From contig CAJNDT010000975.1 of assembly GCA_905221615.1 (NCBI GenBank), positions 1-64,000 on the forward strand: DNA of 64,000 bases, written 5' to 3'. Shown piece after piece: positions 12,062 through 43,344 of the stretch. Origin of the DNA: Symbiodinium sp. CCMP2592 (taxonomy: Eukaryota; Sar; Dinophyceae; Suessiales; Symbiodiniaceae). A program made the translations under genes and the position numbers. The notes under the pieces were generated by a model. That model was not told the DNA's origin. It did no database searches and saw only the letters and a list, made by a program, of their open reading frames with translations. The first letter of the stretch is position 1; each line of letters starts with the position of its first letter.

Positions 12062-12144
12062 TGTGCTGCCTCTTATCCGCTTGGTTAAGCGTTCGGCGAG
12101 GCCGACCGCTGTAGCGGACTTTGGGAGGCGGGCGGCCCTTTCCG

Positions 12145-12157
12145 GGCTCCGCTACCA
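12145..12157 (-). other. Primer binding site, left copy
   Basis: The 13 bases TGGTAGCGGAGCC (minus strand) lie six bases inside the LTR, in the same place as in the right copy. They match the tRNA-initiator-Met type primer site (plant version TGGTATCAGAGC) with small differences. Minus-strand DNA synthesis would start here. Confidence 0.75.
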
Positions 12158-12163
12158 GAAAAC

Positions 12164-12387
12164 TGAGCCGATACACCCACAAGGAAATGCTCCTTGTTAG
12201 GAGGTGTATGACCAGTTTATTCCCTAAGGATCAAAGGGCAGCGCCCTGCACACGGACAGTAGTTGTTTTGTCTTGCTACGCGGTAAAACCACTGTGAGCC
12301 AATGGGCAGCGGAATGTATATGTATGAGCATGCAGCCATTGCTGTAGGTACCTGTTAGAGCTACCCCTTTAGAGGTTTACGCAAACA
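12164..12387 (-). repeat. 5' LTR of left copy, 224 bp with internal deletion
   Basis: It begins TGTTTGCG and ends CGGCTCA on the minus strand. It matches the 250-bp LTR of the right copy throughout except for 26 missing bases between GTGGTTTTACC and GCGTAGCAAG. The deleted segment is present in both right-copy LTRs, so the loss is specific to the left copy or its lineage. Confidence 0.93.
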
Positions 12388-12640
12388 GGGGGGGCAAAGG
12401 GTCGAAGCCTTTAAGCCCCCCTTAAAGCCCCTTTAAAGCCCCCCTTTAAGCCCCCCTTTAAGCCCCCTTCAAGCCCCCCTTTAAGCCCCCCTTTAAGCCA
12501 CCCTTAAGCCCCCCTTTAAGCCCCCCTTTAAGCCCCCCCTTAAGCCCCCCTTTAAGCTCCCCTTTAAGCCCCCCTTAAGCCCCCCTTTAAGCCCCCCTTT
12601 AAGCCTTCCGGAAGCCCCCCTTAAGCTTCCCTTTAAGCCC

Positions 12641-12742
12641 CCCACGCAATCACACACACACACACACAAAACAAGAAGAAGAAGAAGCAATTACAAGCCC
12701 CCACGCAATCACACACACACACACAAAACAAGAAGAAGAAGC
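12641..12742. repeat. Tandem duplication of a CA/AAG microsatellite block
   Basis: The block CCCACGCAATC + (AC)n + AAAACAAGAAGAAG occurs at about 12,641-12,690 and again at about 12,698-12,741. A second imperfect duplication, with CGAAATCG and GCGAAGAAAATA in each half, follows at about 12,745-12,842. No gene is visible. Confidence 0.75.
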
Positions 12743-13156
12743 CACACGAAATCGTTTGATGGGGGGTTTTTGCGAAGAAAATAAAATGAGAAAAGCAAAC
12801 TTTACGAAATCGCTTTTTGGGCGTTTTGCGAAGAAAATACAATGTAGCACCCGCACTTTGAAGGCTTTGAAACCCCTTCTTCATCCCCCCCTTCAAGCCC
12901 CCTTCAAGCCCCCTTCAAAGCCCCCCATTAAGCCCCCTTAAAGCCCCCCTTTAAAGCCCCCTTTAAAGCCCCTTAAAGCCCCCCTTTAAAGCCCCCTTCA
13001 AAGCCCCTTAAAGCCCCCCTTTGAAGCCCCTTCAAAGCCTCTTGAAGCCCCCCTTCAAAGCCCCCCTTAAAGCCCCCTAGCCCCCCTTCAAAGCCCCTTT
13101 GTCAAAACCCCCTTTGCTCACCCCCTTAAAGCCCCTTTAAAGCCCCCCTGAAAGCC

Positions 13157-13161
13157 CCCCT
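13157..13161. repeat. Target-site duplication of right copy (left member)
   Basis: CCCCT directly precedes the 5' LTR and CCCCT directly follows the 3' LTR at 29,014-29,018. A 5-bp duplication is usual for Copia integrases. The target is low-complexity, so a chance match is possible but less likely. Confidence 0.7.
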
Positions 13162-13411
13162 TGTTTGCGTAAACCTCTAAAGGGGTAGCTCTAACAGGTA
13201 CCTACAGCAATGGCTGCATGCTCATACATATACATTCCGCTGCCCATTGGCTCACAGTGGTTTTACCATATTGAGACAAGACAAGCTCTCCTTGCGTAGC
13301 AAGACAAAACAACTACTGTCCGTGTGCAGGGCGCTGCCCTTTGATCCTTAGGGAATAAACTGGTCATACACCTCCTAACAAGGAGCATTTCCTTGTGGGT
13401 GTATCGGCTCA
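13162..13411 (+). repeat. 5' LTR of right copy
   Basis: 250 bp, TG...CA termini. Visible parts: TTTAGAGG-type start region, AATAAA at 13,354-13,359 as a possible polyadenylation signal, and a short hairpin CAAGGA/TCCTTG at 13,379-13,395 near the 3' end. I see no canonical TATA box. Dinoflagellate promoters usually lack one. Confidence 0.95.
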
Positions 13412-13417
13412 GTTTTC

Positions 13418-13430
13418 TGGTAGCGGAGCC
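13418..13430 (+). other. Primer binding site (tRNA-iMet type)
   Basis: TGGTAGCGGAGCC begins six bases after the 5' LTR. It resembles the initiator-Met primer site of plant and other Copia elements. The six-base offset is slightly larger than the common 0-3 bases but is conserved in both copies. Confidence 0.78.
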
Positions 13431-13512
13431 CGGAAAGGGCCGCCCGCCTCCAAAGTCCGCTACAGCGGTCGGCCTCGCCGAACGCTTAACCAAGCGGATA
13501 AGAGGCAGCACA

Positions 13513-16500
13513 ATGTCGAGCTCGCATAGCGAAGCCGACGGCAGTTCCCAATCCTCCGGGGGATATGAGAACGAAGAGACCTCCCAAGGTCCAGCTACTT
13601 ATGTCGCACAGTCATATGCAACATCTGACCGCATGCTTGCATCATTAGGCATAACGCCCAAGATCGCGCCTGCCTATGATGGCACCACCTCGTGGTTTGA
13701 GTATGAACAGTTGATTGACGACTGGTGCGACATAACAACGCTGGATGACACCAAAAGAGGTCCGTCTCTCAAGACGAGGCTCTCCGGATTGGCCGCAGTA
13801 CAAAAGGAATCACTGAACCGAGAAAGGCTTGCAGCCCCAGATGGAGTAGATTACTTCAAGAAGAAGATGCGTCCATTTTTCGTGAAAGGAGAACAGTACG
13901 TTTTCCTGTGGCGTTTCCTCGGCCTATTCAAGGCATGGAAGGGCAACCAAGACTTTGTGACTTGGATTGCCAAGTTTGAGATCGTGCTACAGCGCGTGAA
14001 AAACTCATGGATGGATCTCTTACCAGAGATAGCTCTGGAGGATGCCCATCCAGATTTCATGCAAGCTGTGCAGGCAGACCAAACCTTCTTGCGCATGCAG
14101 GATGCAGCCGAGAGAGACACATATGCCGCACGCTATTTCGAAACATGGAACAAGGAACGCCTTGACAATCATCGAAGAGCGTTTCCTCTGAACGATAATC
14201 TCCTAGCTCTCCTCTTCCTAGTGCAGTCCGACCTAAATGAGATGCAACGTGAGAGGTTGGTAACAGCATTGACCAACCAAGGTCACCGAATTGAGACCTA
14301 CACGTACCCTGTGGTACGGCAGACCATGTTCGATCAGTTCTCAACGACCAGAACTGGTCTGCAGGATCCCAACATTCGGCACTCTTCTCACAAGAAGGAC
14401 CGCCATGGAAGGAGAGACCAACGCCGCAAACGCGGAGGTCGAAACTTCCTCATCCTCGATCAGGGTGAATACGATGGAGTCGATGGATTCTGGCTCCAAG
14501 ACGAAGACACCCTTGAGGAAGGCTTTCTTGCCGCCGAGGATGAAGAAGCTGTCTTCTGGACAGTTGATGACCATGAGGCCTTCGTTGCAAGGAGATTCAA
14601 AAAGGGAAGAAGACCAAGAATGCGTCCCGGATCACCGGGAAGAGCAAAGGGTGGCAAGCGAAAAGGACGTGGCCGTTTTAGGTCATACCGCGGAAAAGGG
14701 AGAGCCAACCAGGCAGAACATGATCCAACTGATTCCAGCTATTTCGGTAAAGGTAAAGGAAAGGAAAAAGGAAAAGGTGGAAAAGGCAAAGGAAAAGGAA
14801 AGGACAAAGGAGATAAAGGAAGCTCCTTCAAAGGCGCAAAGGCAAAAGGCAAAGGTAAGGATACAGCTAAGTCTGCCTCCTTACAAGGAGACCAAACTGG
14901 ATCTCCACAGGCCTATGAGAGTTCCACCGCACCGAGCTGGGATTCATGGTATGAGGACAGTTATTATACTGACTCCAGTTGGAATTATGCCGCTTATGAC
15001 GATCAAACGTCTTATACATACTATGCATCACAAGCCTCACGAAGAAAAACACGGAGAAAGAAGAGAAGAAATCAAGCAGGATCATCAGGTAGAGGCACAG
15101 ATCCGAGCGCGCACCAAGAACCCGTGTTCAACTCATCAGTGAGTTACGTGCCCCAGGTCTTTGAACCATCCGAGGGGCAAGGTGTTGAAACTGCAACAGC
15201 GGTGTTTCCGTTGCAGCACACCGTCCTATCTGCTCTCACAGAGCGGATCAATCTTGATAAGAACCCTACCTTTGTCATACTTGACTCAGGTTGTACTAGG
15301 GCTATGGGTTCCCGCTATGCGGTGAACAGGCTTATCAAGGCCGTGAAGCAACGTGCCCCAGGCATGATTGATTTCACTTTCTCACCTTCGAACACGAAGT
15401 TCTCTTTCGCAGATAGTGAAACAGCTCTTATCAAGGAGCGTGTAACTCTATGGTTCAACACAACTCCAAGAAGAGATACAACCATAGAAGTTCTGGATCA
15501 GGGGAGAGTTCCCATTTTGTTCTCCATCGAACAGATGAGGAATCTAAGAATGACCCTCGAGTGTAGTCCCACAGCTGACCTAGCAACGTGTGAAGCTTTC
15601 GGTTTGTACAAAACCCCCCTTCCGATTAGTACCAATAACCATTTGGTATTGGACCTTCTAGGCTTCACTTCCACCAGGAAGTATCTCCCTAAGTCAGGTA
15701 CGTCGTTCAGTGCGACGGAGACTGCTCTAGGAGCTAAGAAGCCAAAGGAAGAAAGAAGATCTTATACTAAGATCCCGGAAGGTCGCTGTCCAGCCTGCGC
15801 AGGACAGAAAAAGCCTCATACGTTCCTCAAAGGTTGCGACAAAGCACCTGAAGGAGCAGCTGATCCACCACCGAAGGGCATTCCAGGTAAGAAGAAGCCT
15901 CTTCCATCTGATCCGGCAGAATCATCTGCCAAGAAACCTGATCCACCAGAACCATCTGGTGATGCTCCTGAGCCTTCCGAACCATCGGAACCATCATCAG
16001 GCTCTAGAGACAAACCTGCAGAATCATCTGCACCGCACGAACCTCCAGAAGAAGAAAGACTTGAGGTTCCACCTGCGAAGACAAAGACTCCAAAGGGTCT
16101 TAAAAACCTTCTGAAGAAAACCCGCAAATATGCGGTCAAACCTCCTGTTGAGGAGAAGTCTATGGTCCCAGGAGCTGATGACGGGACGGAGGTAAGACCA
16201 CTTGAGTCAAGAGAATACCCGGCTCCTGGTACAGACTCACCTACAGGTGAAGAGATTGTCGCAGAACCATCGCCATCTCTTCCCATTGCTCTTCGCAGGA
16301 TTCATGAGAAGCTTAAGGACCCTGTAGAACTCTATAAGCTTCACCTTAAGCACCGTCATATGAGTACGGATCAGTTCAAGCGACGCACGAAAGCCTTACA
16401 GATCCCAAAGGAGATATATGAGCTATATGACCAACTGGTCAAAAAGTGTTCAGCCTGTCAGGAACACGTGAGAGCTCCTTCAAGAGCGAAGATTTCCGGT

Positions 16501-19500
16501 TTAAGATCAGAGACTTTCGGTGATCTCACCTTCGTAGATCACGGTGAGCTTCCAATTCCCGGCAAAAATAGTCGCTTAATATTTCTTATTCTCTATGACG
16601 GAGCAACAAACCTGTTGACTTCCGAAGTAGTCCAGGATAAAGAAGAGCATACTACAATGTCGATTATGAATGACTACTTTGAGAAATTTCAGATCAACCC
16701 AAAGGTTGTAGTTGGAGATCAAGCATTCATGACTCCAAAAATGGAGGCTTATTACAATCGGCAGAATATCAAGCCTGTAGCAACAGGACCTGGAACACCA
16801 TGGCCCAACAGGGCCGAAGCTGCTGTAAGATTGCTGAAGCATCAGATTAAGATCATACTTCAGATCCTGAAGGATGGTGACCCGCAGTATAACGGAATCA
16901 CCATGAAGTATGGCAACCTCGTTCGACAAGCATGTTTGGCAAGAAACTCTTCGATTACCTATGGAGGAGTTACTCCTTTAGAAATGGCCTTTGGTAGGCG
17001 TCCTCGAGATGTTATAACACCAGAGAACGCTGATCCCAATCAGTTGACAGGTAATCCAACTGATACGGAAGTCACTGCGAGAGCCATTAAGGAGCTTGCC
17101 AACAGGGCTTACCAAGAGGCACGCCAATCTGATGATCTGCGCAGAGATCTTGCGGCCAGACTGTCAATGACCGAAGGACCTTTCTCTTTGGGAGATAAGG
17201 TTTTCTACTGGTCAGAGGATAAGTCTAAGATTGGATCAACTGGGTCCAAACATGGATCTTGGCTAAAAGGAAAGGTGATCTCCGAACTCGGAGGATCCAT
17301 GGTAGGTGTGGATCTTGGAACACGCATCGTCCGCGTTAATATCTCAAAACTGAGGAAAAATTATGACATAACATCTGATGTGGAGATTCCTCTCGCGCCT
17401 GATGAGGAAACTCTGACGTCAGAAGGTTCTGACCACGCAAGTTGCATGGTCACCTTCGATGCTTCCCTGCAGTCGACAGACCTAACGGTTCCGCATCAAG
17501 AGTGTCACTGGCAGGTCACCAGCACTGGGAAGATTGACTTCCTAGAACTCTACGGTGGATCTCCCCGTATGAGTCACAAGGCTGCCCTGTCAGGTCTGCG
17601 AGTAGGTCAGCCAGTCGATTTGCGTAGTGGTCTAGATCTTGAGCAACCGCAAGGTCGCTCCAATCTTCTTAGGATCATCAAGGAACAAGAACCTACTATT
17701 ATTGTTATGTCACCCGATCACTCTCAGTGGTCTAGCTGGTACTCACAGTGGAAGAAAGGCTCTGCCAAGAGACTTTCTGTTTTAAAATTCTGTGAATCGG
17801 TCGCAGACCACCAAATGAAGCTCGGACGTTACTTTGTTCTTGAGAACCCATACTACAGCAGGCTCTGGTCTTCACCAGAAGCAAAACGCCTGTTTTCCAA
17901 CCGCAAGATCAGCTATGAGGTCTGTAACCTACAAGCCTATGGCATGAAAGATCCAAAAGGATACTATGAATCGAAATCCTCGATTTTCATGCACAACCTG
18001 CCACCGCAGGTTCTAACTCCTCTCCAGAGGCATTCTGCCAAAACGAAATCTCCAACATCTCCACCAGGAGACGAAAAGGGTATTCAAGGCTACGGTCTTA
18101 AAACGAAACTCGCACAAGTGTATCCTTATGAATTCTGTGAGACCTTTGCCTCGTGTTTGGCAAGATTCCTGAAGAGAGATACATATGCATCTCATCTTTC
18201 TTTAGTCACAGACATACTAGGATACTCTGGAGATGAATGCCTCCAGGGACTTTCGGAACTTCTTGACCAAGAGTATTCACTTTTGACAGCAAATCCTCTC
18301 AAGGATTCCAAACTCCTGCAAGATCCGAAAATCAGATCACTTGTTGCTAGAGTAAATTCCTTATCGAGTAAAACTGAATTACCATTGCATCATTCCAAAC
18401 CATCACCGTCCCTTGATGCCTTGGTGTCAGACATTACTCGCCTTAGATCAAGACTCTTACCAGGGTCTGGTTTCGAACAGTGTACTCTATACAGAGGTAC
18501 ATTTGGAACAGTCAAAGCACTCACCAGTGTAACTGATGGCGTTCTTGTCTTCTGGAACAAGAAGAAGCCCAATTCGACTATGACGTGTTGCTTGCCGCAC
18601 CAGGTTTCCTGGAATAAAGTACACCCATCAACCTTCTCGGGGGTGCTCTTCCAGATGACAGGCGGCAAGACTTCACCGTCCGTGCGAACACCGCCGGATG
18701 TTATCATGTCGGACGAAGAGGTTTCGCCGTCAGACCCGTCAGAACCCATGAGCACTAATCGCTCACGGATCACATCTGACGATGTCTCTATGCCGGAACC
18801 AGATCAGCCGATGCCTCCCGGCACGCCGCCGTCGCGTCCTCCTCCTCCCATACCTCCACCGCGACTACCGGCCGTTTCCTCCGATGAGCCCGTGGCTCCT
18901 GCTCGGGCTAAGCCTCGCGTGCATCCGCCTCCTCGCGTTCCGTCTCCTCGGCGTCTGGGGGGTGATGTGTCGCCAAGGTCTTCATCGGAAAGGAAAGTTT
19001 CGCCGCACAAACAGAAATCACCTTCACAGGTGCCGACACCAAAACCTAAACCGAAGGCACATCCACAGGGACCCATTCTTCCGTTACAACAGGATGAAGA
19101 AGACTCTGAAGAAGAACTGGTCCCCGATGACCCCGGACAACCGTCCGTTCTTCCTCATACGTCAGGTTCTCCTGAACCAGAGAGTGATGCTGAGTCTGAT
19201 GACACAAGGTATTACTCTGATGAGGAAGGTGACCTGGTCGTAGATGAGAAGGACTGGATCCTTCTCACAGAAGAACAGAAACTGTGCAGTAACACAGGTT
19301 CTTTCTCCATGCCTCGGTACATGCATGGCGGACCCGTAGACATCAGAGAGGTAACATCAAGAGTGAGGTCAGACCGAACACGGTATAAACCCACCAAAAG
19401 GTTCCGATCTGACATCCGTGAAGAGTATGATCTTCTCACGGAAAGAGGACAAGGCCTTAGTTTGATGAAGCGAAAGCAGCAGAATAAGTGGCTAGACAAT

Positions 19501-19608
19501 GATGTCTTTGAGCTCGTCGATACACGGAAACTCGGAAACATCCGAAATTATGTCACTGGTCGATGGGTCCTGACTACTCCGAAATTAACTGATGACTCTA
19601 AGAGATAA
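13513..19608 (+). CDS. Copia gag-pol polyprotein through start of RT (right copy, truncated)
   Basis: The start chosen is the ATG of MSSSHSEADG, which matches the left copy; the frame is open further upstream without ATG support. Domains by residue from this Met: gag about 1-540 with a GKGKGK basic tract about 415-455, protease ILDSGCTRAMG near 588, and the integrase zinc region H..H..CSAC about 941-985. The DDE core has D near 1005, D near 1067 and E near 1103. A methyltransferase-like block (DFLELYGG to ENPYYSRLW) spans about 1340-1513, followed by a Pro-rich linker. Gag and pol are one frame here, so no programmed frameshift is needed. Relative to the left copy, about 100 bases are missing near 19,452-19,490. 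An insertion of about 19 bases near 19,575-19,600 then causes a stop just after GRWVLT, before the RT catalytic residues. Confidence 0.93.
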   Translation: MSSSHSEADGSSQSSGGYENEETSQGPATYVAQSYATSDRMLASLGITPKIAPAYDGTTSWFEYEQLIDDWCDITTLDDTKRGPSLKTRLSGLAAVQKESLNRERLAAPDGVDYFKKKMRPFFVKGEQYVFLWRFLGLFKAWKGNQDFVTWIAKFEIVLQRVKNSWMDLLPEIALEDAHPDFMQAVQADQTFLRMQDAAERDTYAARYFETWNKERLDNHRRAFPLNDNLLALLFLVQSDLNEMQRERLVTALTNQGHRIETYTYPVVRQTMFDQFSTTRTGLQDPNIRHSSHKKDRHGRRDQRRKRGGRNFLILDQGEYDGVDGFWLQDEDTLEEGFLAAEDEEAVFWTVDDHEAFVARRFKKGRRPRMRPGSPGRAKGGKRKGRGRFRSYRGKGRANQAEHDPTDSSYFGKGKGKEKGKGGKGKGKGKDKGDKGSSFKGAKAKGKGKDTAKSASLQGDQTGSPQAYESSTAPSWDSWYEDSYYTDSSWNYAAYDDQTSYTYYASQASRRKTRRKKRRNQAGSSGRGTDPSAHQEPVFNSSVSYVPQVFEPSEGQGVETATAVFPLQHTVLSALTERINLDKNPTFVILDSGCTRAMGSRYAVNRLIKAVKQRAPGMIDFTFSPSNTKFSFADSETALIKERVTLWFNTTPRRDTTIEVLDQGRVPILFSIEQMRNLRMTLECSPTADLATCEAFGLYKTPLPISTNNHLVLDLLGFTSTRKYLPKSGTSFSATETALGAKKPKEERRSYTKIPEGRCPACAGQKKPHTFLKGCDKAPEGAADPPPKGIPGKKKPLPSDPAESSAKKPDPPEPSGDAPEPSEPSEPSSGSRDKPAESSAPHEPPEEERLEVPPAKTKTPKGLKNLLKKTRKYAVKPPVEEKSMVPGADDGTEVRPLESREYPAPGTDSPTGEEIVAEPSPSLPIALRRIHEKLKDPVELYKLHLKHRHMSTDQFKRRTKALQIPKEIYELYDQLVKKCSACQEHVRAPSRAKISGLRSETFGDLTFVDHGELPIPGKNSRLIFLILYDGATNLLTSEVVQDKEEHTTMSIMNDYFEKFQINPKVVVGDQAFMTPKMEAYYNRQNIKPVATGPGTPWPNRAEAAVRLLKHQIKIILQILKDGDPQYNGITMKYGNLVRQACLARNSSITYGGVTPLEMAFGRRPRDVITPENADPNQLTGNPTDTEVTARAIKELANRAYQEARQSDDLRRDLAARLSMTEGPFSLGDKVFYWSEDKSKIGSTGSKHGSWLKGKVISELGGSMVGVDLGTRIVRVNISKLRKNYDITSDVEIPLAPDEETLTSEGSDHASCMVTFDASLQSTDLTVPHQECHWQVTSTGKIDFLELYGGSPRMSHKAALSGLRVGQPVDLRSGLDLEQPQGRSNLLRIIKEQEPTIIVMSPDHSQWSSWYSQWKKGSAKRLSVLKFCESVADHQMKLGRYFVLENPYYSRLWSSPEAKRLFSNRKISYEVCNLQAYGMKDPKGYYESKSSIFMHNLPPQVLTPLQRHSAKTKSPTSPPGDEKGIQGYGLKTKLAQVYPYEFCETFASCLARFLKRDTYASHLSLVTDILGYSGDECLQGLSELLDQEYSLLTANPLKDSKLLQDPKIRSLVARVNSLSSKTELPLHHSKPSPSLDALVSDITRLRSRLLPGSGFEQCTLYRGTFGTVKALTSVTDGVLVFWNKKKPNSTMTCCLPHQVSWNKVHPSTFSGVLFQMTGGKTSPSVRTPPDVIMSDEEVSPSDPSEPMSTNRSRITSDDVSMPEPDQPMPPGTPPSRPPPPIPPPRLPAVSSDEPVAPARAKPRVHPPPRVPSPRRLGGDVSPRSSSERKVSPHKQKSPSQVPTPKPKPKAHPQGPILPLQQDEEDSEEELVPDDPGQPSVLPHTSGSPEPESDAESDDTRYYSDEEGDLVVDEKDWILLTEEQKLCSNTGSFSMPRYMHGGPVDIREVTSRVRSDRTRYKPTKRFRSDIREEYDLLTERGQGLSLMKRKQQNKWLDNDVFELVDTRKLGNIRNYVTGRWVLTTPKLTDDSKR

Positions 19609-19822
19609 GGACGGAAACTTCCTTAAGTGCAAGGCCCGATGGGTCCTAAGAGGTTTCCAGGATCGACAAAAGGACATTCAGCAAACTGATAGTCCTGCTG
19701 CGAGTCGCCCAGGTTTCCGCTTGGCGATTCAACTAGCAGCTAACAAGCTGTGGAATCTGACACACATCGACCTAAAGACTGCTTTCTGCAGGGTGAAGCC
19801 TATGATGAGTCGAGAGACATAA
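19592..19822 (+). pseudogene. RT fragment, frame-shifted (right copy)
   Basis: Short frame carrying the RT fingers segment KDGNFLKCKARWVLRGFQD up to DLKTAF, displaced from gag-pol by the insertion near 19,580. It ends because one C is missing in GCTTTCTGCAGG (left copy GCTTTCCTGCAGG), which shifts the next part of RT again. Confidence 0.85.
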
Positions 19823-21321
19823 TCTGTCAGATTCCTCCTGAAGCAGGTTATCCTCCCTACATTGCAGCGAGGATGAAGAAACCCGCTTATGGACTTAACG
19901 ATGCACCTCGAAGATGGTGGAACATCGTTGATAAGGCACTCCTGTCTTACGGCCTGGTGCCAACCCGTGCGGATCGCTGTACATATGTTTTGTATGGTAA
20001 GAAGTCTGCAACAGCAGATGCTGAGCTCAAGAAGTCTCAGCCAAAGACCATGGAATCAGCGATTGACTATCTCCTAGATCCCATAGCAGGCAACAATGCC
20101 AAGGGTAGACAGGTACATGGAGTAGTCTGTTTGCATGTAGATGACCTGTGCATGGCCGGTGATGACACCTTTCGTAAGGCCGTGATTGATTCGATCAAAA
20201 AGGAGTTTGCAGTAGGTTCTGAAGACACGAACGACATTATGTTTGTAGGACAGAGATTAGTCTGGAAGGATGCTACAGCATCAGTGCCAGCACATATCTC
20301 AGTAAATCAGAACCTAGCTGTTGAAGCTCTAGAGGAAATTGTTTTTGATAAGAAGCTCAACAATGAGCAACAATGCACACCACAGCAGCACACTGCTTAC
20401 AGAAGTGTTTTAGGACAGATCAACTGGCTACAAAGCCGGACTCAAGCTCACATCTGTTATCGCTTCAGTCGGTGTGCGAGCAAGGCCGCCAAACCTACTA
20501 TCGGTGACGTTCGAGAACTGAACAAGCTTGTTAGGATTTTGAAGTCTACTGAGGTAGAACTACGTTTTTGGCCGCTGAAAGGAAATCTCAGAATCCTCGG
20601 TTACCCTGATGCTTCCTACAGGAACAATGATGACAAATCATCTCAGAGAGCACATGTTATTTTCCTTGCTGAAGATCGAAATCCAAAGCTAAAGGGAATG
20701 AAACAATCAGCAGCAGCTGCTTCTTCCAAGAAGAACGATTTCTCTGAATCCTCTATTAAGGAAACATCCTCGAGAGGGAGCCTGGTGGATTATGAGTCTC
20801 ACAAGATTACGACAACCACAATGTCCACAACAGTGGCAGAGCTTAACGCACTGATGCGTTGCTTTGGTACTTGCCTGTTCCTCAAGGGACTTTGGGCAGA
20901 TCTCTCATCAGAGACCGTACCCATACATATCAGAACAGATGCGAACAATCTTGTGACAACAGCAGGCACGACACACCTTCCAGAGCAGAAGGAAACTCAC
21001 CACCTCATTCAGATGCTTCGTAAGGAATCCAACTCTGGATCTTTAGATGACCTAGCTCATGTAAGCTCGAAGTACTGCCTAGCTGATGCATTAACAAAGC
21101 ACTCGGCGCAACCTGATGAGCTTATCAAGGCTCTGGAAACAGGGAATTTACCAGAAACAGACATTCATCCACCCTTCCGTGAACTTCTTCAACATAAAGC
21201 TTTCACTGTTCGGTGGATCATAGACAATCTCAAGAATGCCGCCACAGCGGTAGCCTTCCTTGGAATTGATATCTCAACAGAGATTTACCGATTATTTTAC
21301 TGCCAAGGAATATGGTGGTAG
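19750..21321 (+). pseudogene. RT palm/thumb and RNase H (right copy, cut off from gag-pol)
   Basis: Open frame of about 523 codons continuing RT after the one-base deletion near 19,790. Visible are LQGEAYDESRDI, KKPAYGLNDAPRRWW, the catalytic LHVDDLCMAGDD (about 20,130) and RNase H with GYPDASYRNN (about 20,600), TVAELNALMRC and SKYCLADALTKH. The catalytic residues are retained, but the protein is not in frame with gag-pol. It ends with TGGTGGTAG, whose ATGG overlap starts the second ORF. The left copy has this whole region as one frame. Confidence 0.9.
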
Positions 21322-24300
21322 TCTCGTTTGCTGGTAGCACAACCATGTGCTGGATTTTCTATTTAGACTGTTTTCCGTCTAAAAGAAAATTTGTGTCTGC
21401 GAGCTGCGTTTTCATTAAGATCGGACATGTTCATGAGAATTATATGTTCTGTATCATCCGCAGCCGCTTTCAGCCTCGAGCCTCACAGCAATCAGCCTTT
21501 CGGGCTAACCAAGCGTTCCTGATCCTGTTTGGTCATTGTGCCGTAATGAGCACACGATCAAACTTCCGTAGCCGTGATGGACACGCCCTACCCAGGGCAG
21601 TGCAGGCGTACCATGAGCGACATCCACACATGGATAGCTCGTACCCCGAGTCTCGTCGGGAAGCATCACGTCGAAACACCGAACACGGTGGACACCGAAT
21701 TCACAAACGTGAGAAAAATCACGAGCCTCAATTCATCATCATGGGTCACCAACAGGTGTTCAATCCGCATCCAAGAGATCTTGCTCAATTGATCTCACGA
21801 TATGGCCATGCGAGTGGAGCAAGGCTCACTCTAAACTCCAGACATGGAGTCAGGCTCTACGAAGGAGTCCTTCAAGGACCATGGGACAACAGTCCCCTTG
21901 TATACTGGGATAACAACGTCGGTAATCACGCTCGTGATCCACGCCAGTTCTGTACGATGCTTGCACATCACCTTCAGACAGGCCTCCCACCGGAGGTAGA
22001 ACAATGTGTGAGCCTTGATGGATCCGGAGAATATGACTATTCCTCCTCAGTGCCAAAACTGGCAGATGTAACAGGTCTCTCACCAGAGATGTGCTTCCAC
22101 ATTCTTTCCAAGACCAACAGAGTCGGAAGGTGGTTGGCACACTCAACAAGACACCTTCAGAACCAGCGCCCAGATCTCTTTGCTGGCCAACACAATTATC
22201 TTCTGGACATGTTCAAGTTGGCCGATGCAGAGCTCGCACAGTATACACCACAAGAGATCGCGCTTGGTGTCCTCCTCAACACTAAGTCTAGGTTTGTGGT
22301 CACCATGGTTTATAACAAAGATGGCAAGGCCGAAACCACAGATGCCGCCGTTAACATCCCACCGGATGCAAATGTGTTGACCATGAGCAAAATTTTCCTT
22401 TCGGCAGTGGGAGGACACGGTTCACGACGAACTCTACCAAGAGCTGAAGAACCAGATCCTGAAGAAGAGAGACCAAGGTCACACATGACCATCTCAGACT
22501 TCATGGCAACGGGGAGCAATCCAGTGCAGTCCCGTGCACAGCGTCTCTCCACTAACGCGCCGAGGCCCGTCGGCATGGAGGATTTTGTTCGACAGAACAA
22601 CCCTTGTTACATCATGCATGCCACGGACCTACAGGCATTATCCTCAATCCTGAGGCACGGTCTGGTACCATCAAACCTCCTAGCGCAGGTGGTTACAGCA
22701 CCAGATTTCCAAGCTCTTGTGAATGAAAACAGTCGTTCCAACAGGGACACTGTTCAGTTCTCAACGCTAAACCTGGCGAATCCCAATCCGACCATGTTGC
22801 GTGCCAACAAGGCACTGCTTCTGGTATTCGATGCAAATAACGTAGTGAACGAAGTCACAAACCTGTGGCAGTCGCAAGTAGGGATGTTTGCTACACCAGA
22901 TGTAGTGCATGCCCGTACTCTTAGCGCCGTATTCGCACCCTCTGAAACACTCTGGGTATCATCGCAATACGATGAGCTCAAGAGCATCGGACCATGGTGG
23001 GCAGACCATTGCTCCGAACAGATGCCGTCAGCGACTTACGAGTCGAAGAAATGGTGCGCAAATTACGGCCGAGAAATCGAATCGGCACTTCGAAAAGTGG
23101 CAAGGCGAAATCTGCCACCAGAGCCTCCCAAGGCTAGATCTTCTCACAAGAAGTCTTTTTCTCTGCCAAAGACAGAGGCTGACACAGCTCCAAACCTGGA
23201 GCAAACCGCTTCTGCAGGTGAGGTACCTCCGAAAACGGAGACTACTGCAAAGGAGATCCATCCGAGATCCAAGCTCGCCCGGCAGGCCGAGGCTGACAAG
23301 GATCCGGACAGTCTTATGGGACAGCTCTGGAACTCCGACGGCACCAGAAGCGCCACCGAAGTTCTTAAGATAACGACAGGTCACAAACCTCCAGAACCTG
23401 TTCAGGATACTTCCGCCAACGTAGTTCCTCCCAAGGAAGAATCTTCTGGAACAGAGACGGAACCTGAGGAACCGGATCCTAACCAGGATCGTGACGAAGA
23501 ATCAGACGATGAGTCGGCATCAAGCGAAAAGAGCTCAAAATCTTCGTCATCCTCAGAACTCCGAGTTGATGTTAATCCGTCTCACAAGACGAACTCTGCA
23601 CCTGCAGCGTCGGAGGAGAAGAAAGAATCTCCCACGGAAGAGATCACAGAGAAACTTAAGAAGGTCAAACTTGACCAACCAAGGCCTGAAGCAGAATATG
23701 TTCAGAGTTCAGACGAAGAGCCACAGAAACCAAAATCTCCTAAAAAGGAGAAGGAAAAATTTCTAGTTCTCTTCGATCCTGAAACAGAAAGTTATTATCG
23801 AGTCAACAGAAGCAAGCTCAACCTCGAATACGAGGAACCTGCTGATGAGGAAGATCTCGTAAGAGAACATGAGCGCATCAGCGCTCGACTTCGAGAAAAT
23901 CACAAGCACCGAATCTCGAAGTCATCGTCTAACCCGGCTATGCAACAGGAAATGAAAGAGAGAATCTGGGTTAGTCGATGGAATCGAAAAATCCGAAGTC
24001 CACTCATGATCAAGGATTCTGAGGCTCCTGACGAAGAGGAGTGGGACAGACCCAGAGATTCGGCATCTTCCTCCTCTGCACCTCCTACCAAGGAGAGATT
24101 TGTAGGAGTACGCAGGACAGCCATGAGTCTTAACCAAAGGATACGGCTGATGACACGACCAGATAATCCTCTCTGCGATCTTTGCAACCAGCCTACAGGC
24201 TATTTTTGCTATTCCTGTGGTACGATTGTATGTGCAGACTGTCGACTTACCCCACAGGGTAAACAACAGATGTGCGAGTGCATCTTGCCAATCGATTGCC

Positions 24301-27300
24301 TCGAGACCTCTAAAGTGTCAGCAGGAATGACCTCAGAAGAGCGTCAGGTTTTATACGAGGCCATCCTCACACATGAGGACGTAGATTTGGCAGTCCAGAA
24401 AATCAACATGTATTGCGACCACGCAAGGAATTCGTTCATGAGAGCCCATCCAGGCGTTGATCCATGTAGCTTTGATGATATTAGGAATAATCCTCCTAAT
24501 ACTTACACCAGCTCCACAGAGGCTCCAACCCTGGAGGAATACAAGAGCATCAACAAGGGTCACATCAATATCAAGGACTCCAGAACAAGCCACCCGGCTT
24601 CTTTTCTCTCTCTTACTGGCTACGAAGACAAACTGGTGCTCGACGCACATTACGAGATAGTTCGTAATAGGATGGCCGGTGTTAACGAAAAGAGAGAATA
24701 CATAGAGGGCTCAAACCCAGACAGCGTATCACTAAGCCTAGTGGTATGCAACTGGGGAAATATGGATCGAGCGCCGGTGCCAGCAGGGAATCCCAAAAAG
24801 AAACTCAAACCTGAGAAGGGATTCGATTACCACCCTCTTATTGACATGTGCTTCAACAATTCAGCACATATTACCCTCGTACTCGAGGCAGGAGCACTTG
24901 CGTCAAAGTATTCGATCGCAACCATGCGACAACATGAATACAGAGGGATGCTAATCCATTCTCCTCCCAAGGAGCCTGAGGCACCCTCAATGTATATTGG
25001 AGTCAAGGGTGACCCAACAACAGACATCTCTCTCGTCCACCACTTTTACCGTCACCGAACAATGAAGCCTAAGGCTGGTGGTCCCAAGAAGCGACTGTGG
25101 GCATGCCACGGTGCGGTATGCCGCCTCACCTTTGGGTACCACAGTACCATCAAGGAGGCAAAAGAATGGGTCCACCCATATTCCGGCCAGAGGATGACGA
25201 GAGATGAGTACATGAAGATTATCGGATATGACCCTCTCAAGGGTAAAAATCCTGACAAGGATGGACCCACTGATGGCTCTTACCTCTCACCAGAGGCGTG
25301 TCTGACAATGTCGGACCTCGACCCTGCGCCGGTTCTCTGTGAATGGAACGGCCATGTCGAGGGTGATGAGCCACCAGAGGAAGACTTTGAGTCATACGCA
25401 GAGATCTTCTCACAAGAAGCATCAAACGATCTTGACGAGATGTGGTGTACAAAAGGGCCTTACAAGGTCATCACCATCGCGATCGTCCATTTCAACTCAT
25501 ACATGACTCATAAGGAAGAACAGAGGCGCGAACTGGTGAACGCGTTCCTCAACGAGGTTCTCCCTTTCAAACCGGATGTAATTGCGGGGGATCTCAATAA
25601 TATTGCGTCGAGGCTCACCTTAAAAGGTGGAGACGTTCACCCGCGAAACGGTTTGTTTTCTCTATACCTGGAGAAGAAACTTGCAGCATTCAACAGAATA
25701 GCAGGAAGGCACTCACAAGTGCGACACCTCTGCTTGAACAACTCTGACCAGCACAGACTGGCACGTGCAGATCGTCTACCGCCGGACCCGGCGAAGAAAG
25801 TTGCTGACCTCGACTGTATCAACAGTTATATCCTTGACTGGAGTAAAACGCCGCACACGGCGTCACCTAGTCCAAGAGATGCTACACCTGCCGCCGAAAG
25901 AACATACTGGGAACGAGTCTCAGATATGTGGCAGGACATGAACAGAAACAGGGATATCGATATCCGTCTGTTTGTCTCAGTCAAGCAGTACTATTCAACT
26001 TTTTCTAACCTTGACCTGTGGTTGAGTCCCTCTGACAAAGATTGGCACAGCCCTTTGGGCTTCACGATACAACCAATCCTTACAAAAGGGAAACACAACC
26101 GGTCAGATGCCCAGGTTCAGAAGATCGCTGACAAGCGACAGGCTTACAAGCAGCGTAATGCTGAATACTGGGATTACAAAGACTCATTTGTGTATTCATC
26201 CGGCAACAGCTGGTACGACAGACAGCAACCACAAGGTAGCTATCACAGATATGGAAGATTCTGGGAAAGGCCACAGCCTGAACGTCCCAGCGAGCCTGAA
26301 GGCCCTCCTCCAAGAAGGAGCCAGGCATCATCGTCCTCTTCACAACAAGATCTACCAAGATCGAGATCCAGACCTCAGAGAGCCAGTCTTGTTGACAAGC
26401 TCAACATGTCTTTAGAGGAACTGGACACACTGGAGGAAGAACAATCTCCAACAAAAAGTGATATCGAAGAGCACGAACGAGAAACATCAAACCTGATGTC
26501 GGCTCAAAGAGATGAAGAGGAACAGGAGGATGAATCTTCCAGCCGAAGAAGAAGAAGGAAGTCATCACGACCGCCGTCTGCTCCGAGCAGCAAGGCACTC
26601 CGAACAGCTGCCACAGCAGCGGGATTATCGAACTGGTTCGGACACCGTAATCAAGGCGGTGCAAACGCAGAGTCTATCAAGACTGATGAACCTTCACTTC
26701 CAAACTCACTAACCAGTGAGCAAGATTTCTCCGTCTTCAGCATCGCGTGGAATGTGTTTCTGCTGCTAATGGGCCTACACTGGATGTGGAAGCAGCTCAC
26801 CAGGGCTCCCATCAGATGTATGGACCGCCAACAATCAAATGCAAAAGCAGCAGCGAAACGACCACCACCATTTCTCGAACCCGAGAATGAACCACAGACG
26901 CGTGAACCTTTAGGACCCAACAGGGTCAATTCTGGAGAAACAACGGATTTGCGACCTGTGTGGCACACTTCCCGAAGCGAAGTCTACCATCTTTCAGACA
27001 GCTGTTACCAGCTCAAGCAAGCAAAAGATGTTTCAAGGAAGGTGCTGTGTAAAACCTGCCTCCAGGCAGTACAAGTTGCGGAGATTCGCAGGAACGATCC
27101 TTTTCAAAGAGGTGATACACGATCACGTGGCACCGAAAGGGACATTGAACGGTTTCAAACCTATGACGATGCAAGTACTACTCCTCATATGAGGCAATTA
27201 TTCAGTGATGCATTGCATTCACAAATGGCCGAAGAAGCCATGCAGATTACCTATACATCAATCCCTAAGGGATCCTCGGCAAGAGCCAGAGGTACATCTG

Positions 27301-28451
27301 CACTCGCAAGTGCCTCATCGTCGTCAGTGCCCAAGGCAATGCCACCAGTGCCTAACAAGGCAAACATGTCACCTCCACCTAAGACTCCTCCGCCAAAGGC
27401 GAAAGGAACAGTACCTTCAGATCCTCCGAGACCAAAAGGTCCTACCAGAAGAGGAGGTCAAAATCGGCGCATTCAACGAAAAGCAGCTAGAGAAGCCCAT
27501 AACAGTGGACTCTGCAACCATGCAGACGCTGCACTTGGCGAAGCCAATCAAGGCCAGGCCATTAACACTATGTGCCGAAACATGGCAGTAAGACACGTCA
27601 GCTCTATCGATGCAACGGTAGAAGCAGCCGAGCAGTTTACACAACGCGTGCAACAGCACGTAGAAACATATGATGAAGAGGAACCGTGGAGCACGGAGTT
27701 TCTACCAGTCGTGGAAGTCCTATTCAGGAACTTGAGCAGCGACGAAACAACTGTCATACATGACAATCATACGGTAACTATGCCTATTGAGAAATATCTC
27801 GACCTCCTCAGAATCGCACAATCATTGCGAAACTCTATCCAGAGAGACAAGGAGGAAAGAAAGGATCATCTTGACACCATCCAAGATACTCTATCCAGAG
27901 TGGAAATCCTTCTAACAGCACTGAAGGACTCAAAAACAGTCTTCAATCAATTGGTCCATTCCTCACTAGAGATAGAGCGAAGACATAAAAACCTCAAAAA
28001 TGTCCTTGAGACACTTTTTGACGACCAAAGCTCTGAGGAAGACCAGTCAGAATCTGACCATGAAGAAGTCCTAACTCCTTCTGCAGCACAGTACTGGAAC
28101 AGCCTTCATGCCCACGCCTTATCTCCCTCAGGAGATGAAAGTGAAAGATCATGGGCGTCCTCAGACGGACAGCTTGAAAGAAGAAGGGCCGAACGGGCAA
28201 AGGCTAAGCAGCCACAACCGGCTAAAGCCGAGGCAACTCCAATCAGCTCACAAGCTGCACCAAAGGCCGAGCCAAAGGCGACTACATCCAACCATGGATA
28301 TGACACTGCAGACGCCGCCTTCACCAGGGCTGAGAACAGATTACTCGGAATCTTTTCAAGTTCCGAAGAAGATCACTCAGACCCGGATGAACCACATCCG
28401 AACGTCTATGCTCGAGCCTATGATCCAAACCTGGATCCAAATCTGAGATAA
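21312..28451 (+). CDS. Second ORF: Tpt1-like / zinc / EEP nuclease / membrane / coiled-coil protein (intact)
   Basis: 2,379 codons with no interruption, in the -1 frame relative to pol and overlapping it by 10 bases. A likelier start is ATG 21,546 (residue 79, MSTRSNFRS), after the internal purine tract. Visible regions by residue: Tpt1/KptA-like about 210-560 (LAHHLQTGLP, LLNTKSRF, MHATDLQALSSILRHGL, RDTVQF, LLLVFDANNV), acidic/Ser-rich linker 600-800, Cys cluster 955-990 (CDLC..CYSC..CADC..CEC), and an EEP-type nuclease about 1140-1590. The nuclease shows VVCNWGN, LVLEAG, VIAGDLNN and DWHSPL. A single hydrophobic helix lies near 1807-1829, an Ada-like YHLSDSC...CKTC at about 1892-1920, and a coiled coil at about 2158-2240. 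Three of the four Tpt1 catalytic positions look substituted, while the EEP acidic and His positions look kept. Known Copia elements do not normally carry such an ORF. Its role is inferred to be in RNA or DNA processing or host interaction. Confidence 0.9.
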   Translation: MVVVSFAGSTTMCWIFYLDCFPSKRKFVSASCVFIKIGHVHENYMFCIIRSRFQPRASQQSAFRANQAFLILFGHCAVMSTRSNFRSRDGHALPRAVQAYHERHPHMDSSYPESRREASRRNTEHGGHRIHKREKNHEPQFIIMGHQQVFNPHPRDLAQLISRYGHASGARLTLNSRHGVRLYEGVLQGPWDNSPLVYWDNNVGNHARDPRQFCTMLAHHLQTGLPPEVEQCVSLDGSGEYDYSSSVPKLADVTGLSPEMCFHILSKTNRVGRWLAHSTRHLQNQRPDLFAGQHNYLLDMFKLADAELAQYTPQEIALGVLLNTKSRFVVTMVYNKDGKAETTDAAVNIPPDANVLTMSKIFLSAVGGHGSRRTLPRAEEPDPEEERPRSHMTISDFMATGSNPVQSRAQRLSTNAPRPVGMEDFVRQNNPCYIMHATDLQALSSILRHGLVPSNLLAQVVTAPDFQALVNENSRSNRDTVQFSTLNLANPNPTMLRANKALLLVFDANNVVNEVTNLWQSQVGMFATPDVVHARTLSAVFAPSETLWVSSQYDELKSIGPWWADHCSEQMPSATYESKKWCANYGREIESALRKVARRNLPPEPPKARSSHKKSFSLPKTEADTAPNLEQTASAGEVPPKTETTAKEIHPRSKLARQAEADKDPDSLMGQLWNSDGTRSATEVLKITTGHKPPEPVQDTSANVVPPKEESSGTETEPEEPDPNQDRDEESDDESASSEKSSKSSSSSELRVDVNPSHKTNSAPAASEEKKESPTEEITEKLKKVKLDQPRPEAEYVQSSDEEPQKPKSPKKEKEKFLVLFDPETESYYRVNRSKLNLEYEEPADEEDLVREHERISARLRENHKHRISKSSSNPAMQQEMKERIWVSRWNRKIRSPLMIKDSEAPDEEEWDRPRDSASSSSAPPTKERFVGVRRTAMSLNQRIRLMTRPDNPLCDLCNQPTGYFCYSCGTIVCADCRLTPQGKQQMCECILPIDCLETSKVSAGMTSEERQVLYEAILTHEDVDLAVQKINMYCDHARNSFMRAHPGVDPCSFDDIRNNPPNTYTSSTEAPTLEEYKSINKGHINIKDSRTSHPASFLSLTGYEDKLVLDAHYEIVRNRMAGVNEKREYIEGSNPDSVSLSLVVCNWGNMDRAPVPAGNPKKKLKPEKGFDYHPLIDMCFNNSAHITLVLEAGALASKYSIATMRQHEYRGMLIHSPPKEPEAPSMYIGVKGDPTTDISLVHHFYRHRTMKPKAGGPKKRLWACHGAVCRLTFGYHSTIKEAKEWVHPYSGQRMTRDEYMKIIGYDPLKGKNPDKDGPTDGSYLSPEACLTMSDLDPAPVLCEWNGHVEGDEPPEEDFESYAEIFSQEASNDLDEMWCTKGPYKVITIAIVHFNSYMTHKEEQRRELVNAFLNEVLPFKPDVIAGDLNNIASRLTLKGGDVHPRNGLFSLYLEKKLAAFNRIAGRHSQVRHLCLNNSDQHRLARADRLPPDPAKKVADLDCINSYILDWSKTPHTASPSPRDATPAAERTYWERVSDMWQDMNRNRDIDIRLFVSVKQYYSTFSNLDLWLSPSDKDWHSPLGFTIQPILTKGKHNRSDAQVQKIADKRQAYKQRNAEYWDYKDSFVYSSGNSWYDRQQPQGSYHRYGRFWERPQPERPSEPEGPPPRRSQASSSSSQQDLPRSRSRPQRASLVDKLNMSLEELDTLEEEQSPTKSDIEEHERETSNLMSAQRDEEEQEDESSSRRRRRKSSRPPSAPSSKALRTAATAAGLSNWFGHRNQGGANAESIKTDEPSLPNSLTSEQDFSVFSIAWNVFLLLMGLHWMWKQLTRAPIRCMDRQQSNAKAAAKRPPPFLEPENEPQTREPLGPNRVNSGETTDLRPVWHTSRSEVYHLSDSCYQLKQAKDVSRKVLCKTCLQAVQVAEIRRNDPFQRGDTRSRGTERDIERFQTYDDASTTPHMRQLFSDALHSQMAEEAMQITYTSIPKGSSARARGTSALASASSSSVPKAMPPVPNKANMSPPPKTPPPKAKGTVPSDPPRPKGPTRRGGQNRRIQRKAAREAHNSGLCNHADAALGEANQGQAINTMCRNMAVRHVSSIDATVEAAEQFTQRVQQHVETYDEEEPWSTEFLPVVEVLFRNLSSDETTVIHDNHTVTMPIEKYLDLLRIAQSLRNSIQRDKEERKDHLDTIQDTLSRVEILLTALKDSKTVFNQLVHSSLEIERRHKNLKNVLETLFDDQSSEEDQSESDHEEVLTPSAAQYWNSLHAHALSPSGDESERSWASSDGQLERRRAERAKAKQPQPAKAEATPISSQAAPKAEPKATTSNHGYDTADAAFTRAENRLLGIFSSSEEDHSDPDEPHPNVYARAYDPNLDPNLR
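21362..21399 (+). promoter_or_regulatory. Hairpin plus internal polypurine motif (possible central PPT)
   Basis: TTTAGAC/GTCTAAA form a perfect 7-bp stem with an 8-base loop (21,362-21,383), running into TAAAAGAAAATTTGTGTCTG at 21,380-21,399. The latter matches the purine motif before the 3' LTR (28,742-28,761) at 19 of 20 bases. It sits between the pol stop and the probable start of the second ORF. It is also present in the left copy. Confidence 0.6.
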
Positions 28452-28763
28452 GAAAATTCTCAGAGTTTCACAACAGTGACTCACAAAGCTCTAACAAGAG
28501 CACAGTGAAGGGCTGCATAATTCGATAGAAGAACATCACCAGACCTGATCTTGTACAGATGATCTCTCTGACCAATGTGCATGAAAGAGTTCAAAAGGAG
28601 TGATTTCAAGAGTGACTTCAACAGTGTACTTCAGTGCTATACCTAGCATAAACAATATGCTGTTTTTATCATGAGTCCAAACTCCGCAACTGTGACAGTG
28701 GGCATAATAGTATATGTGTGAATGTGCGGCCATGCTTCCGGTAAAAGAAAATTAGTGTCTGTT
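28452..28763 (+). other. 3' untranslated leader to the 3' LTR with polypurine tract
   Basis: 312 bases without a credible gene. It ends with TAAAAGAAAATTAGTGTCTG (28,742-28,761), the likely priming site for plus-strand DNA. The purine run is 11 bases from the LTR start rather than adjacent to it. Confidence 0.6.
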
Positions 28764-29013
28764 TGTTTGCGTAAACCTCTAAAGGGGTAGCTCTAACAGG
28801 TACCTACAGCAATGGCTGCATGCTCATACATATACATTCCGCTGCCCATTGGCTCACAGTGGTTTTACCATATTGAGACAAGACAAGCTCTCCTTGCGTA
28901 GCAAGACAAAACAACTACTGTCCGTGTGCAGGGCGCTGCCCTTTGATCCTTAGGGAATAAACTGGTCATACACCTCCTAACAAGGAGCATTTCCTTGTGG
29001 GTGTATCGGCTCA
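28764..29013 (+). repeat. 3' LTR of right copy
   Basis: 250 bp, read as identical to the 5' LTR at 13,162-13,411, including the 26-bp segment missing from the left copy. AATAAA is at 28,956-28,961. It is followed by CCCCT, the right target duplication, and then by remnants of the CCCCTTTAAG satellite. Confidence 0.95.
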
Positions 29014-29822
29014 CCCCTTAAGCCCCCCCCTTTGTTAAAGCGGGAGGGGCCCACAGAGAGCCGGTAGAAGGGCAGTCGAAGGCAAGTTGCACCAAGGCGG
29101 CAGAAGACCTTGCAGTTGTCAGTCCGCATTGCAGGAATCTGTGCTTCCCGGGTGGCTAACGGTGACAAGGCCGGGGAAAACGGTCAACTCGTGCTCAGAG
29201 AAGACCATCAGTCGCTGTTGGATTTGCTGCCTGCTTTTCTTCCGGAGATTGCAGTGCCCTCAGACTGGATCCCTGGCCGGTCAAGCTTTAGTGGCCTTTT
29301 GCTTGCTGTCTCTGCTCAGCTTAGCATGGCAAGGCCTTTTTTCGTGCCTATGCAATAGCCCTGCGGACTGGAGGGGGAGCGTCGGCTGTGCTTGCAAACC
29401 CAGGGAGGCATCGTCTAACGGAAGTAAGAGGAGAAAAGTGCCTTTGCAGACGCCTGGGTACGAAAACATTTGAGGATCGAAATCGTTCCGTCTGGCTGGG
29501 AGAAGTCCACGATGGAAGCCTTCCACATGCGGGCAGCAATCGCAATTTGGAGCTGGCCTACAAGAGAGGCGGGCACCTCCGCCTTGACTCTGATCTCAAC
29601 AAACCGCAAGCCATTGTGCTTGACTGGTACGACTCTTACGAGCTGTAGGAGGGAAGGCGCATCAGGCTCGTCGGTCAGGACCCTGGCTGCGCTTCGTTGC
29701 AAGGGCCCCAGGTTTGTCCCTCTCTGCACGTCGCAGCCAGGGAGTGCATGCGGTGGTTGGCTGTCGGCCTATGAGAGGAGACTTCCCCTTGCCTCACGCC
29801 CTTGGCTATGTTGCACATGTTA

Positions 29823-43324: not shown

Positions 43325-43344
43325 CGCCCCGCTACGGCGGGGCG
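43325..43344. repeat. GC hairpin with TACG loop at satellite/direct-repeat junction
   Basis: CGCCCCGC and GCGGGGCG form a perfect 8-bp stem around TACG, exactly at the boundary where the right direct repeat starts. As RNA it would be a UACG tetraloop. Confidence 0.8.

Follow-up and report, generated by a model that had tools for sequence, protein, structure and literature searches.

What might a Copia-type retrotransposon do with a giant protein encoded after pol, when gag and pol are usually held sufficient for a long terminal repeat (LTR) element? The question arises from a stretch of 64,000 nucleotides (nt) of Symbiodinium sp. CCMP2592 (contig CAJNDT010000975.1, positions 1 to 64,000; here, the window), in which a Copia element carries a second open reading frame (ORF2) downstream of its pol. 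A preliminary description, made from the sequence alone, had proposed that ORF2 combines Tpt1-like, EEP nuclease, membrane, and zinc domains and is maintained by selection. Our analysis indicates that purifying selection maintains an extra protein of 2,301 amino acids (aa) in an element with hundreds of copies, that this protein contains a Tpt1-like domain as well as an EEP-like core, and that nearly all insertions examined are in runs of C.

The region 13162-29013 (+) of the window is a single Copia-type LTR retrotransposon of ∼15.85 kb. Its LTRs (250 nt each, TG..CA ends) are mutually identical, and CCCCT flanks both ends as a target site duplication (TSD) of 5 bp. Pfam identified an RVT_2-type reverse transcriptase (RT) in pol (E, 0.0015 in this plus copy and 9.6e-17 in a second, minus-strand copy) and gave a weak match to the integrase, rve (E, 0.0048; 17.6 versus a cut-off of 32.6 bits); the order of integrase before RT was read directly off the sequence. 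With identical LTRs, a TSD, and an RVT_2-type RT, the element belongs to the Copia class, as had been described. Membership among the APE-type long interspersed nuclear elements (LINEs) was rejected, as LTRs are present and the RT lies in a separate pol frame, not in the frame of ORF2. A search for the tRNA primer of the gttttcTGGTAGCGGAGCCCGG region with a single exact tRNA pattern gave 0 matches.

The giant frame itself is intact in the plus copy: it lies inside the LTRs, after pol, and is open from stop to stop at 21270-28451 (2,393 codons; ATG, 21312). The earlier statement that the frame is conserved between the two copies in the window does not hold, as ORF2 of the minus-strand copy has two in-frame stops. 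Both copies are damaged, the plus copy in pol (broken between ∼19443 and 19786) and the minus copy in gag/pol and ORF2, with ORF2 of the plus copy open.

We searched the genome (1.098 Gb) for further copies. An ORF2 40-mer occurred at 635 sites (≤3 mismatches) and the first 28 nt of the LTR at 471 sites (≤2 mismatches), and the reversed control gave 0 in each case. Twenty LTR pairs, 15.3 to 15.75 kb apart, were drawn from 100 listed of the 471 LTR places; 19 of these pairs enclose the exact ORF2 40-mer, and for the remaining pair (C240), the 100 listed of the 635 40-mer places do not include its site. The uninterrupted 2,393-codon frame is kept in 20/20 of the best scored genome matches, which form a biased sample because they were the closest of 10,723 candidates. 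Two diverged subfamilies (C913 and C1170) also retain ORF2, with pol-end ORFs upstream and related LTR sequence downstream. Because this order is kept, ORF2 is not a one-off insertion. ORF2 is an integral part of a high-copy element.

At the protein level, searches that depend on shared 5-mers gave eight proteins, of which the three with a source name are all from Symbiodinium; the nearest named proteins are from Symbiodinium sp. CCMP2592 and KB8. Two gene models of Symbiodinium sp. CCMP2592 (P0010 and P0011) fuse element fragments to other sequence, one of them being named BSL3 and having a Metallophos domain; these fusions are likely an annotation artefact. In addition, a main-family copy (L083, G000:C1170:1000-3100; 98.9% identity over 1,119 nt) and the diverged C1170 copy face each other tail to tail, with a C-rich repeat between them.

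Selection on ORF2 was examined as the ratio of nonsynonymous to synonymous substitution rates (dN/dS) between the window copy and its relatives. From residue 79 on, dN/dS was 0.134 overall against L010 (segments, 0.10 to 0.21, with one short segment not computable and the EEP stretch lowest), 0.099 against L009, and 0.25 against L011 (segments, 0.14 to 0.49). It is important to note that dS is near 2 for L009 and L010, which makes these ratios rough. The ratio of 0.22 among eight near-identical copies was set aside because those copies had been chosen by protein similarity. The first 78 codons differ, with a dN/dS of 0.94 against L010 (67 aligned codons), and L011 has a stop codon within this leader, directly upstream of MSTRSN. 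A single TGA falls inside the match in 10 of the 22 full-length relatives; that of L011, the one read, is the one in the leader. Because the leader is neutral and L011 has a stop before MSTRSN, coding begins at residue 79 (21546) and not at 21312 as first proposed. The proposal of selection was upheld by these comparisons: ORF2 is kept by purifying selection between subfamilies. A decayed pseudogene was considered and rejected on the same ratios.

Among the insertions examined, nearly every one lies in a C-run, in a fixed strand orientation and with a TSD of ∼5 bp; neither this preference nor the internal purine tract described below was part of the preliminary description. With each insertion counted once, a C-run stands at the 3′ flank of 24 of 25 main-family insertions and in both diverged subfamilies (C913 and C1170). 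The 3′ flank opens with CCCC or longer in all of the first eight copies. Among the 20 LTR pairs, 18 of 19 readable 3′ flanks open with a C-run (exception, C93, with AACCT), and 18 of 20 5′ flanks end in, or ≤2 bases from, one (exceptions, C93 and C543). Elsewhere in the window, CCCC begins at 0.5% of positions. The C's of the runs were always on the sense strand of the element in the insertions examined. TSDs are 5 bp in the window copy, C93 (AACCT), and C244 (CCCCA) and 6 bp in C430a; they become shorter or vanish where C-runs slip and are ambiguous in long C-runs, with 4 bp in C330, 3 bp in C646b, and none in C543. In three Copia families that lack ORF2 (L088, L089, and L090), 0/4 readable flanks were in C-runs, with uncertain LTR ends.

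A second sequence feature lies just before the protein. The 3′ purine tract TAAAAGAAAATTAGTGTCTG has an internal copy, with one change, 166 nt upstream of ORF2, and L009, L010, and L011 all keep this leader copy without change. No further site within 3 mismatches was found in the element besides 28742 and 21380. Lentiviruses and Ty1 carry central polypurine tracts (PPTs), which the internal tract resembles; alternatively, it may act as a splice acceptor.

The similarity of ORF2 to Tpt1/KptA, claimed earlier as a fold, is supported by profile comparison. PF01885 (Pfam) matches three of the six members of A5, below its cut-off (best E, 0.012; 16.1 versus 26 bits). A profile of ORF2 relatives compared with four KptA sequences gave an hhalign P of 65 to 69% (E, 4 to 6e-5); the KptA profile ranked first against 35 Escherichia coli ORFs and 4 EEPs, with E. 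coli KptA alone as runner-up, and its profile-profile score of 39.3 exceeded the maximum of 27.4 among 60 column-shuffled profiles. The plain hidden Markov model was marginal, at 7.9 bits for P0008, 5.2 for P0001, 2.9 for P0009, 1.8 for P0014, and −2.1 for P0015, the best of 200 shuffles being 2.0. The significant portion is the NAD lobe (C-lobe); the N-lobe alone is not significant, with 7/50 shuffles at or above its score. A low-confidence full-length alignment places GRWLAHSTRHL opposite the LRH motif and NTKSRF opposite DKKRF. With SNRDTVQF added, this alignment yields the R-H-R-R tetrad as R280, H281, R327, and R478, and the HGT His would be H436. The tetrad and the HxT His are the same in all four rows of A2, with the N-lobe placement taken from the low-confidence alignment, and TRHL is identical in 9/9 rows covering that position. 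The R-H-R-R tetrad has been defined for Tpt1, whose enzymes work on RNA 2′-phosphate (PMC6333775).

The EEP-like similarity is supported for the core only. We built an EEP profile of 23 rows from 4 seeds and 19 of 22 loci (L034, L036, and L042 were left out). Nine of ten ORF2 pieces score 10.9 to 16.1 bits on it, compared with 7.6 for the best of 500 shuffles; the tenth, P0010, does not have GDLNN and scores 5.0 bits. For 46 columns of the core (ITIAIVHFN...AGDLNN), hhalign gave a P of 69.4% and a score of 41.1, versus ≤24.7 for 60 column-shuffled profiles. Of the hallmarks listed in the preliminary description, the core VHFN...GDLNN therefore stands, while CNWGN, LVLEAG, and DWH were unsupported in separate tests. 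We retain the label EEP-like because these three motifs are conserved across relatives and, with the core, occur in EEP order. N1147, E1192, D1427, N1429, and H1579, which would stand for the catalytic N, E, DxN, and DH of EEPs, are unchanged in the relatives covering them, apart from rows that are truncated or have a broken end (P0009); L009 reads GDPNN, with D and N retained. A search of viral contigs for relatives of XthA, YbhP, and the EEP piece of ORF2 found none. The window also contains a LINE-like frame of 1,647 aa (56319-61262, +), in which a single ORF combines Exo_endo_phos (E, 2.4e-8) and RVT_1 (E, 7.5e-22) with a ubiquitin hydrolase, UCH (E, 8e-11), at the C terminus.

Elsewhere, ORF2 has long linkers, acidic and Ser rich, and a few smaller features (Table 1). 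The zinc cluster described earlier does match zf-B_box but under the Pfam cut-off, and the proposed membrane helix comes down to one hydrophobic segment of borderline hydropathy. Together with the linkers and the position after pol, where accessory ORFs are often termed env-like (PMC7264820), this segment fits a reading in which ORF2 takes the place of env as a protein of large size with a structural or membrane-linked role, its enzyme-like domains serving for binding only. We regard this as unlikely, since the top hydropathy is just 1.56 and the catalytic-looking residues are conserved.

Table 1. Features of the ORF2-bearing Copia element and of its second copy in the window
Feature	Position	Strand	Basis
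TSD CCCCT, 5′ side	13157..13161	+	same as 29014-29018
5′ LTR, 250 nt, TG..CA	13162..13411	+	identical with 3′ LTR
gag-pol, two frames (13345-19608, 19744-21321)	13345..21321	+	RVT_2, rve matches
Probable primer-binding region gttttcTGGTAGCGGAGCCCGG	13412..13433	+	position directly after LTR
Leader, pol stop to ORF2, codon-level neutral	21322..21545	+	dN/dS
Internal copy (19 of 20) of 3′ purine tract TAAAAGAAAATTAGTGTCTG, central-PPT-like	21380..21399	+	sequence comparison
ORF2, 2,301 aa, start MSTRSNF	21546..28451	+	dN/dS change and L011 stop
Tpt1/KptA-like domain, ∼residues 270-530 of P0001	22119..22901	+	profile tests
B-box-like Cys cluster, residues 951-978	24162..24245	+	zf-B_box E 0.00041, 20.9 vs cut-off 24.1 bits (Pfam)
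EEP-like domain, ∼residues 1135-1585; supported core VHFN...GDLNN ∼25455-25598	24714..26066	+	profile tests
Hydrophobic segment, residues 1806-1824, borderline membrane helix	26727..26783	+	best 19-mer hydropathy 1.56
C-terminal Cys/His cluster (VYHLSDSC...CKTC)	26958..27059	+	read off sequence
3′ purine tract TAAAAGAAAATTAGTGTCTG	28742..28761	+	sequence comparison
3′ LTR	28764..29013	+	identical with 5′ LTR
TSD CCCCT, 3′ side	29014..29018	+	matches 5′ side
Second, inverted copy, truncated by window start	1..12387	-	frame break near 10235 (gag/pol); ORF2 stops 1975-1977, 841-843

What, then, would such a protein do? That ORF2 is an accessory helper protein for replication or integration, under purifying selection, is a role to which we give about an even chance. 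The likeliest mechanism, which we put forward tentatively, is that the EEP-like domain steers the integrase to C/G tracts and that the Tpt1-like domain processes ends. The ORF2 protein would travel with the pre-integration complex, the EEP-like domain would bind or nick C/G tracts and so direct the pol integrase there, and end joining would remain the job of the integrase; the Tpt1-like domain would process or ADP-ribosylate the phosphate ends of element RNA or cDNA. In LINEs, EEP nucleases choose the target. The fuller version of this idea, that a Copia element recruited an EEP nuclease and a Tpt1-type phosphate/ADP-ribose enzyme as a strand-specific module for target choice and end processing, combining LTR-type integration with LINE-type target choice, seems to us rather doubtful.

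Several results weigh against the targeting mechanism. None of our results ties the EEP-like domain to the C-runs, for which the integrase, another part of pol, or a host factor could account. The EEP N-lobe (CNWGN, LVLEAG) gave a P of 0.1%, with 23/50 shuffles at or above; the C-end gave a P of 4% with 0/50 shuffles at or above, in a match that excludes DWH, and DWH puts one residue between D and H, which is atypical. Pfam, NCBIfam, and PHROGs yielded no EEP family for ORF2, nor did a PDB search yield an EEP chain. AlphaFold models of the Tpt1-like and EEP-like pieces (6 rows each) were too poor to use, the two mean pLDDT (predicted local distance difference test) values being 30.7 and 40.3. 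A recurring repeat context is shared by at least 7 of the 20 LTR pairs, so these particular sites are not fully independent; without these pairs, 11 of 12 readable 3′ flanks are still C-runs (exception, C93). The control families are few and distant (two at ∼21 to 23% identity over ∼400 residues, the third with no match at E 1e-4), in addition to their uncertain LTR ends.

The low pLDDT values, the lack of any family library match above its cut-off, and the confinement of significance to the EEP core and the Tpt1 C-lobe would also be expected if the domain calls were due to chance, with ORF2 a protein peculiar to its lineage, of unknown fold, whose likeness to Tpt1 and EEP is limited to short motifs. 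Both profile-profile scores, however, beat all column-shuffled profiles (41.1 versus 24.7 for EEP and 39.3 versus 27.4 for KptA), and the motifs follow the expected order and are retained in relatives at 54 to 69% identity. We consider a chance resemblance very improbable.

A closer competitor of the targeting mechanism is the repair of RNA ends or the evasion of defence. Here the Tpt1-like domain would remove or ADP-ribosylate 2′-phosphates, and the EEP-like domain would be an ANGEL2-like 2′,3′-cyclic phosphatase or a nuclease, so that cut element RNA or a cut tRNA primer is healed or a host RNA-cutting defence is disarmed, with the C-runs chosen by the integrase. ANGEL2 is an EEP-type phosphatase for 2′,3′-cyclic phosphate ends. 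The substrate of Tpt1, RNA 2′-phosphate (PMC6333775), the conservation of the putative tetrad residues in ORF2, and the presence of both domains in one protein under selection are consistent with repair. However, it leaves the C-runs unexplained, the profiles do not place the EEP-like domain in any one subgroup, and both activities are predicted ones. We consider RNA-end repair possible and place it close behind the targeting helper; both fit the results obtained.

The fixed-strand preference for C-runs poses a testable question, namely, what brings the integrase of a Copia element to a homopolymer. Targeting by the EEP-like domain would mean that an LTR element has acquired the LINE type of target choice; otherwise, the protein with its Tpt1-like and EEP-like parts is a candidate module for RNA repair in a mobile element. 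Copia is described as outnumbering every other retrotransposon class of Symbiodinium (PMC5890265), and the answer may therefore be relevant to the growth of these genomes.

Other features of the sequences were recorded alongside. The two inverted copies meet head to head at 12381-13161 in an imperfect ∼12-nt repeat (TTTAAGCCCCCC-like). Between integrase and RT, a block at 17482-18051 (+) resembles by eye a degenerate C5-methyltransferase; it matched 0 Pfam families at E values up to 5, and a DNA_methylase domain is therefore not supported. A similar-looking block follows RNase H in the window's other Copia. Near-identical direct repeats at 38925-39589 and 43344-44016, spaced by ∼4.42 kb, flank a tandem array of ∼435-bp units; together these are perhaps a non-autonomous LTR element. 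Outside the window, the neighbour genes on G000:C5051 (L022 and L023) look bacterial by eye (PEP-CTERM-like and CtaB-like proteins), and this contig may be assembly contamination.

Compared with known systems, ORF2 shares with Tpt1/KptA RNA 2′-phosphotransferases the C-lobe profile match and, in the low-confidence alignment, the positions of the R-H-R-R tetrad and HxT His. It differs in that HGT is replaced by HAT and, in most relatives, HVHLS by VQF, in a long insert upstream of the HAT motif, and in the location of the domain within a giant retroelement protein. With EEP nucleases (E. coli XthA, YafD, and YbhP and the LINE EEP of the window at 56319-61262) it has in common the core strand-helix-strand VH..GDxN and the motif order, whereas it has no family-library match, an unsupported N-lobe, D-W-H rather than adjacent D-H, and an LTR context.

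Among retroelements of the same genome, the Copia families L088, L089, and L090 likewise have LTRs and a large gag-pol frame, with an RVT_2-type RT in the window member of the first family and an RT-region match to this pol at ∼21 to 23% identity in L089 and L090. They differ in having a single frame of 2,370 to 2,706 codons and 457 to 683 nt from pol stop to 3′ LTR, which leaves no room for ORF2. In open-licence papers, we found no report of a Tpt1-like and EEP-like pairing in a retroelement or of C-run targeting. SymbioLINE-Dnmt and SymbioDIRS-Dnmt3 are, like the ORF2 element, Symbiodinium retroelements with captured enzymes, and a figure legend names Exo_endo_phos; in contrast, they belong to the LINE and DIRS classes, and the available portion of that paper notes no Tpt1 and describes abundant Symbiodinium Copia without a DNMT domain (PMC5890265). 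LTR elements of bdelloid rotifers carry an ORF3 for a DEDDy exonuclease or GDSL esterase, which resembles ORF2 in being an enzymatic accessory ORF after pol with invariant residues kept and unknown role. The enzyme families and LTR lineages are other ones, the portion of the source available notes neither EEP nor Tpt1, and its authors report no significant departure from neutrality for ORF3 (PMC5408684). Precedents exist both for an enzyme-encoding accessory ORF in LTR elements (PMC5408684) and for enzyme capture by LINE and DIRS elements of Symbiodinium (PMC5890265).

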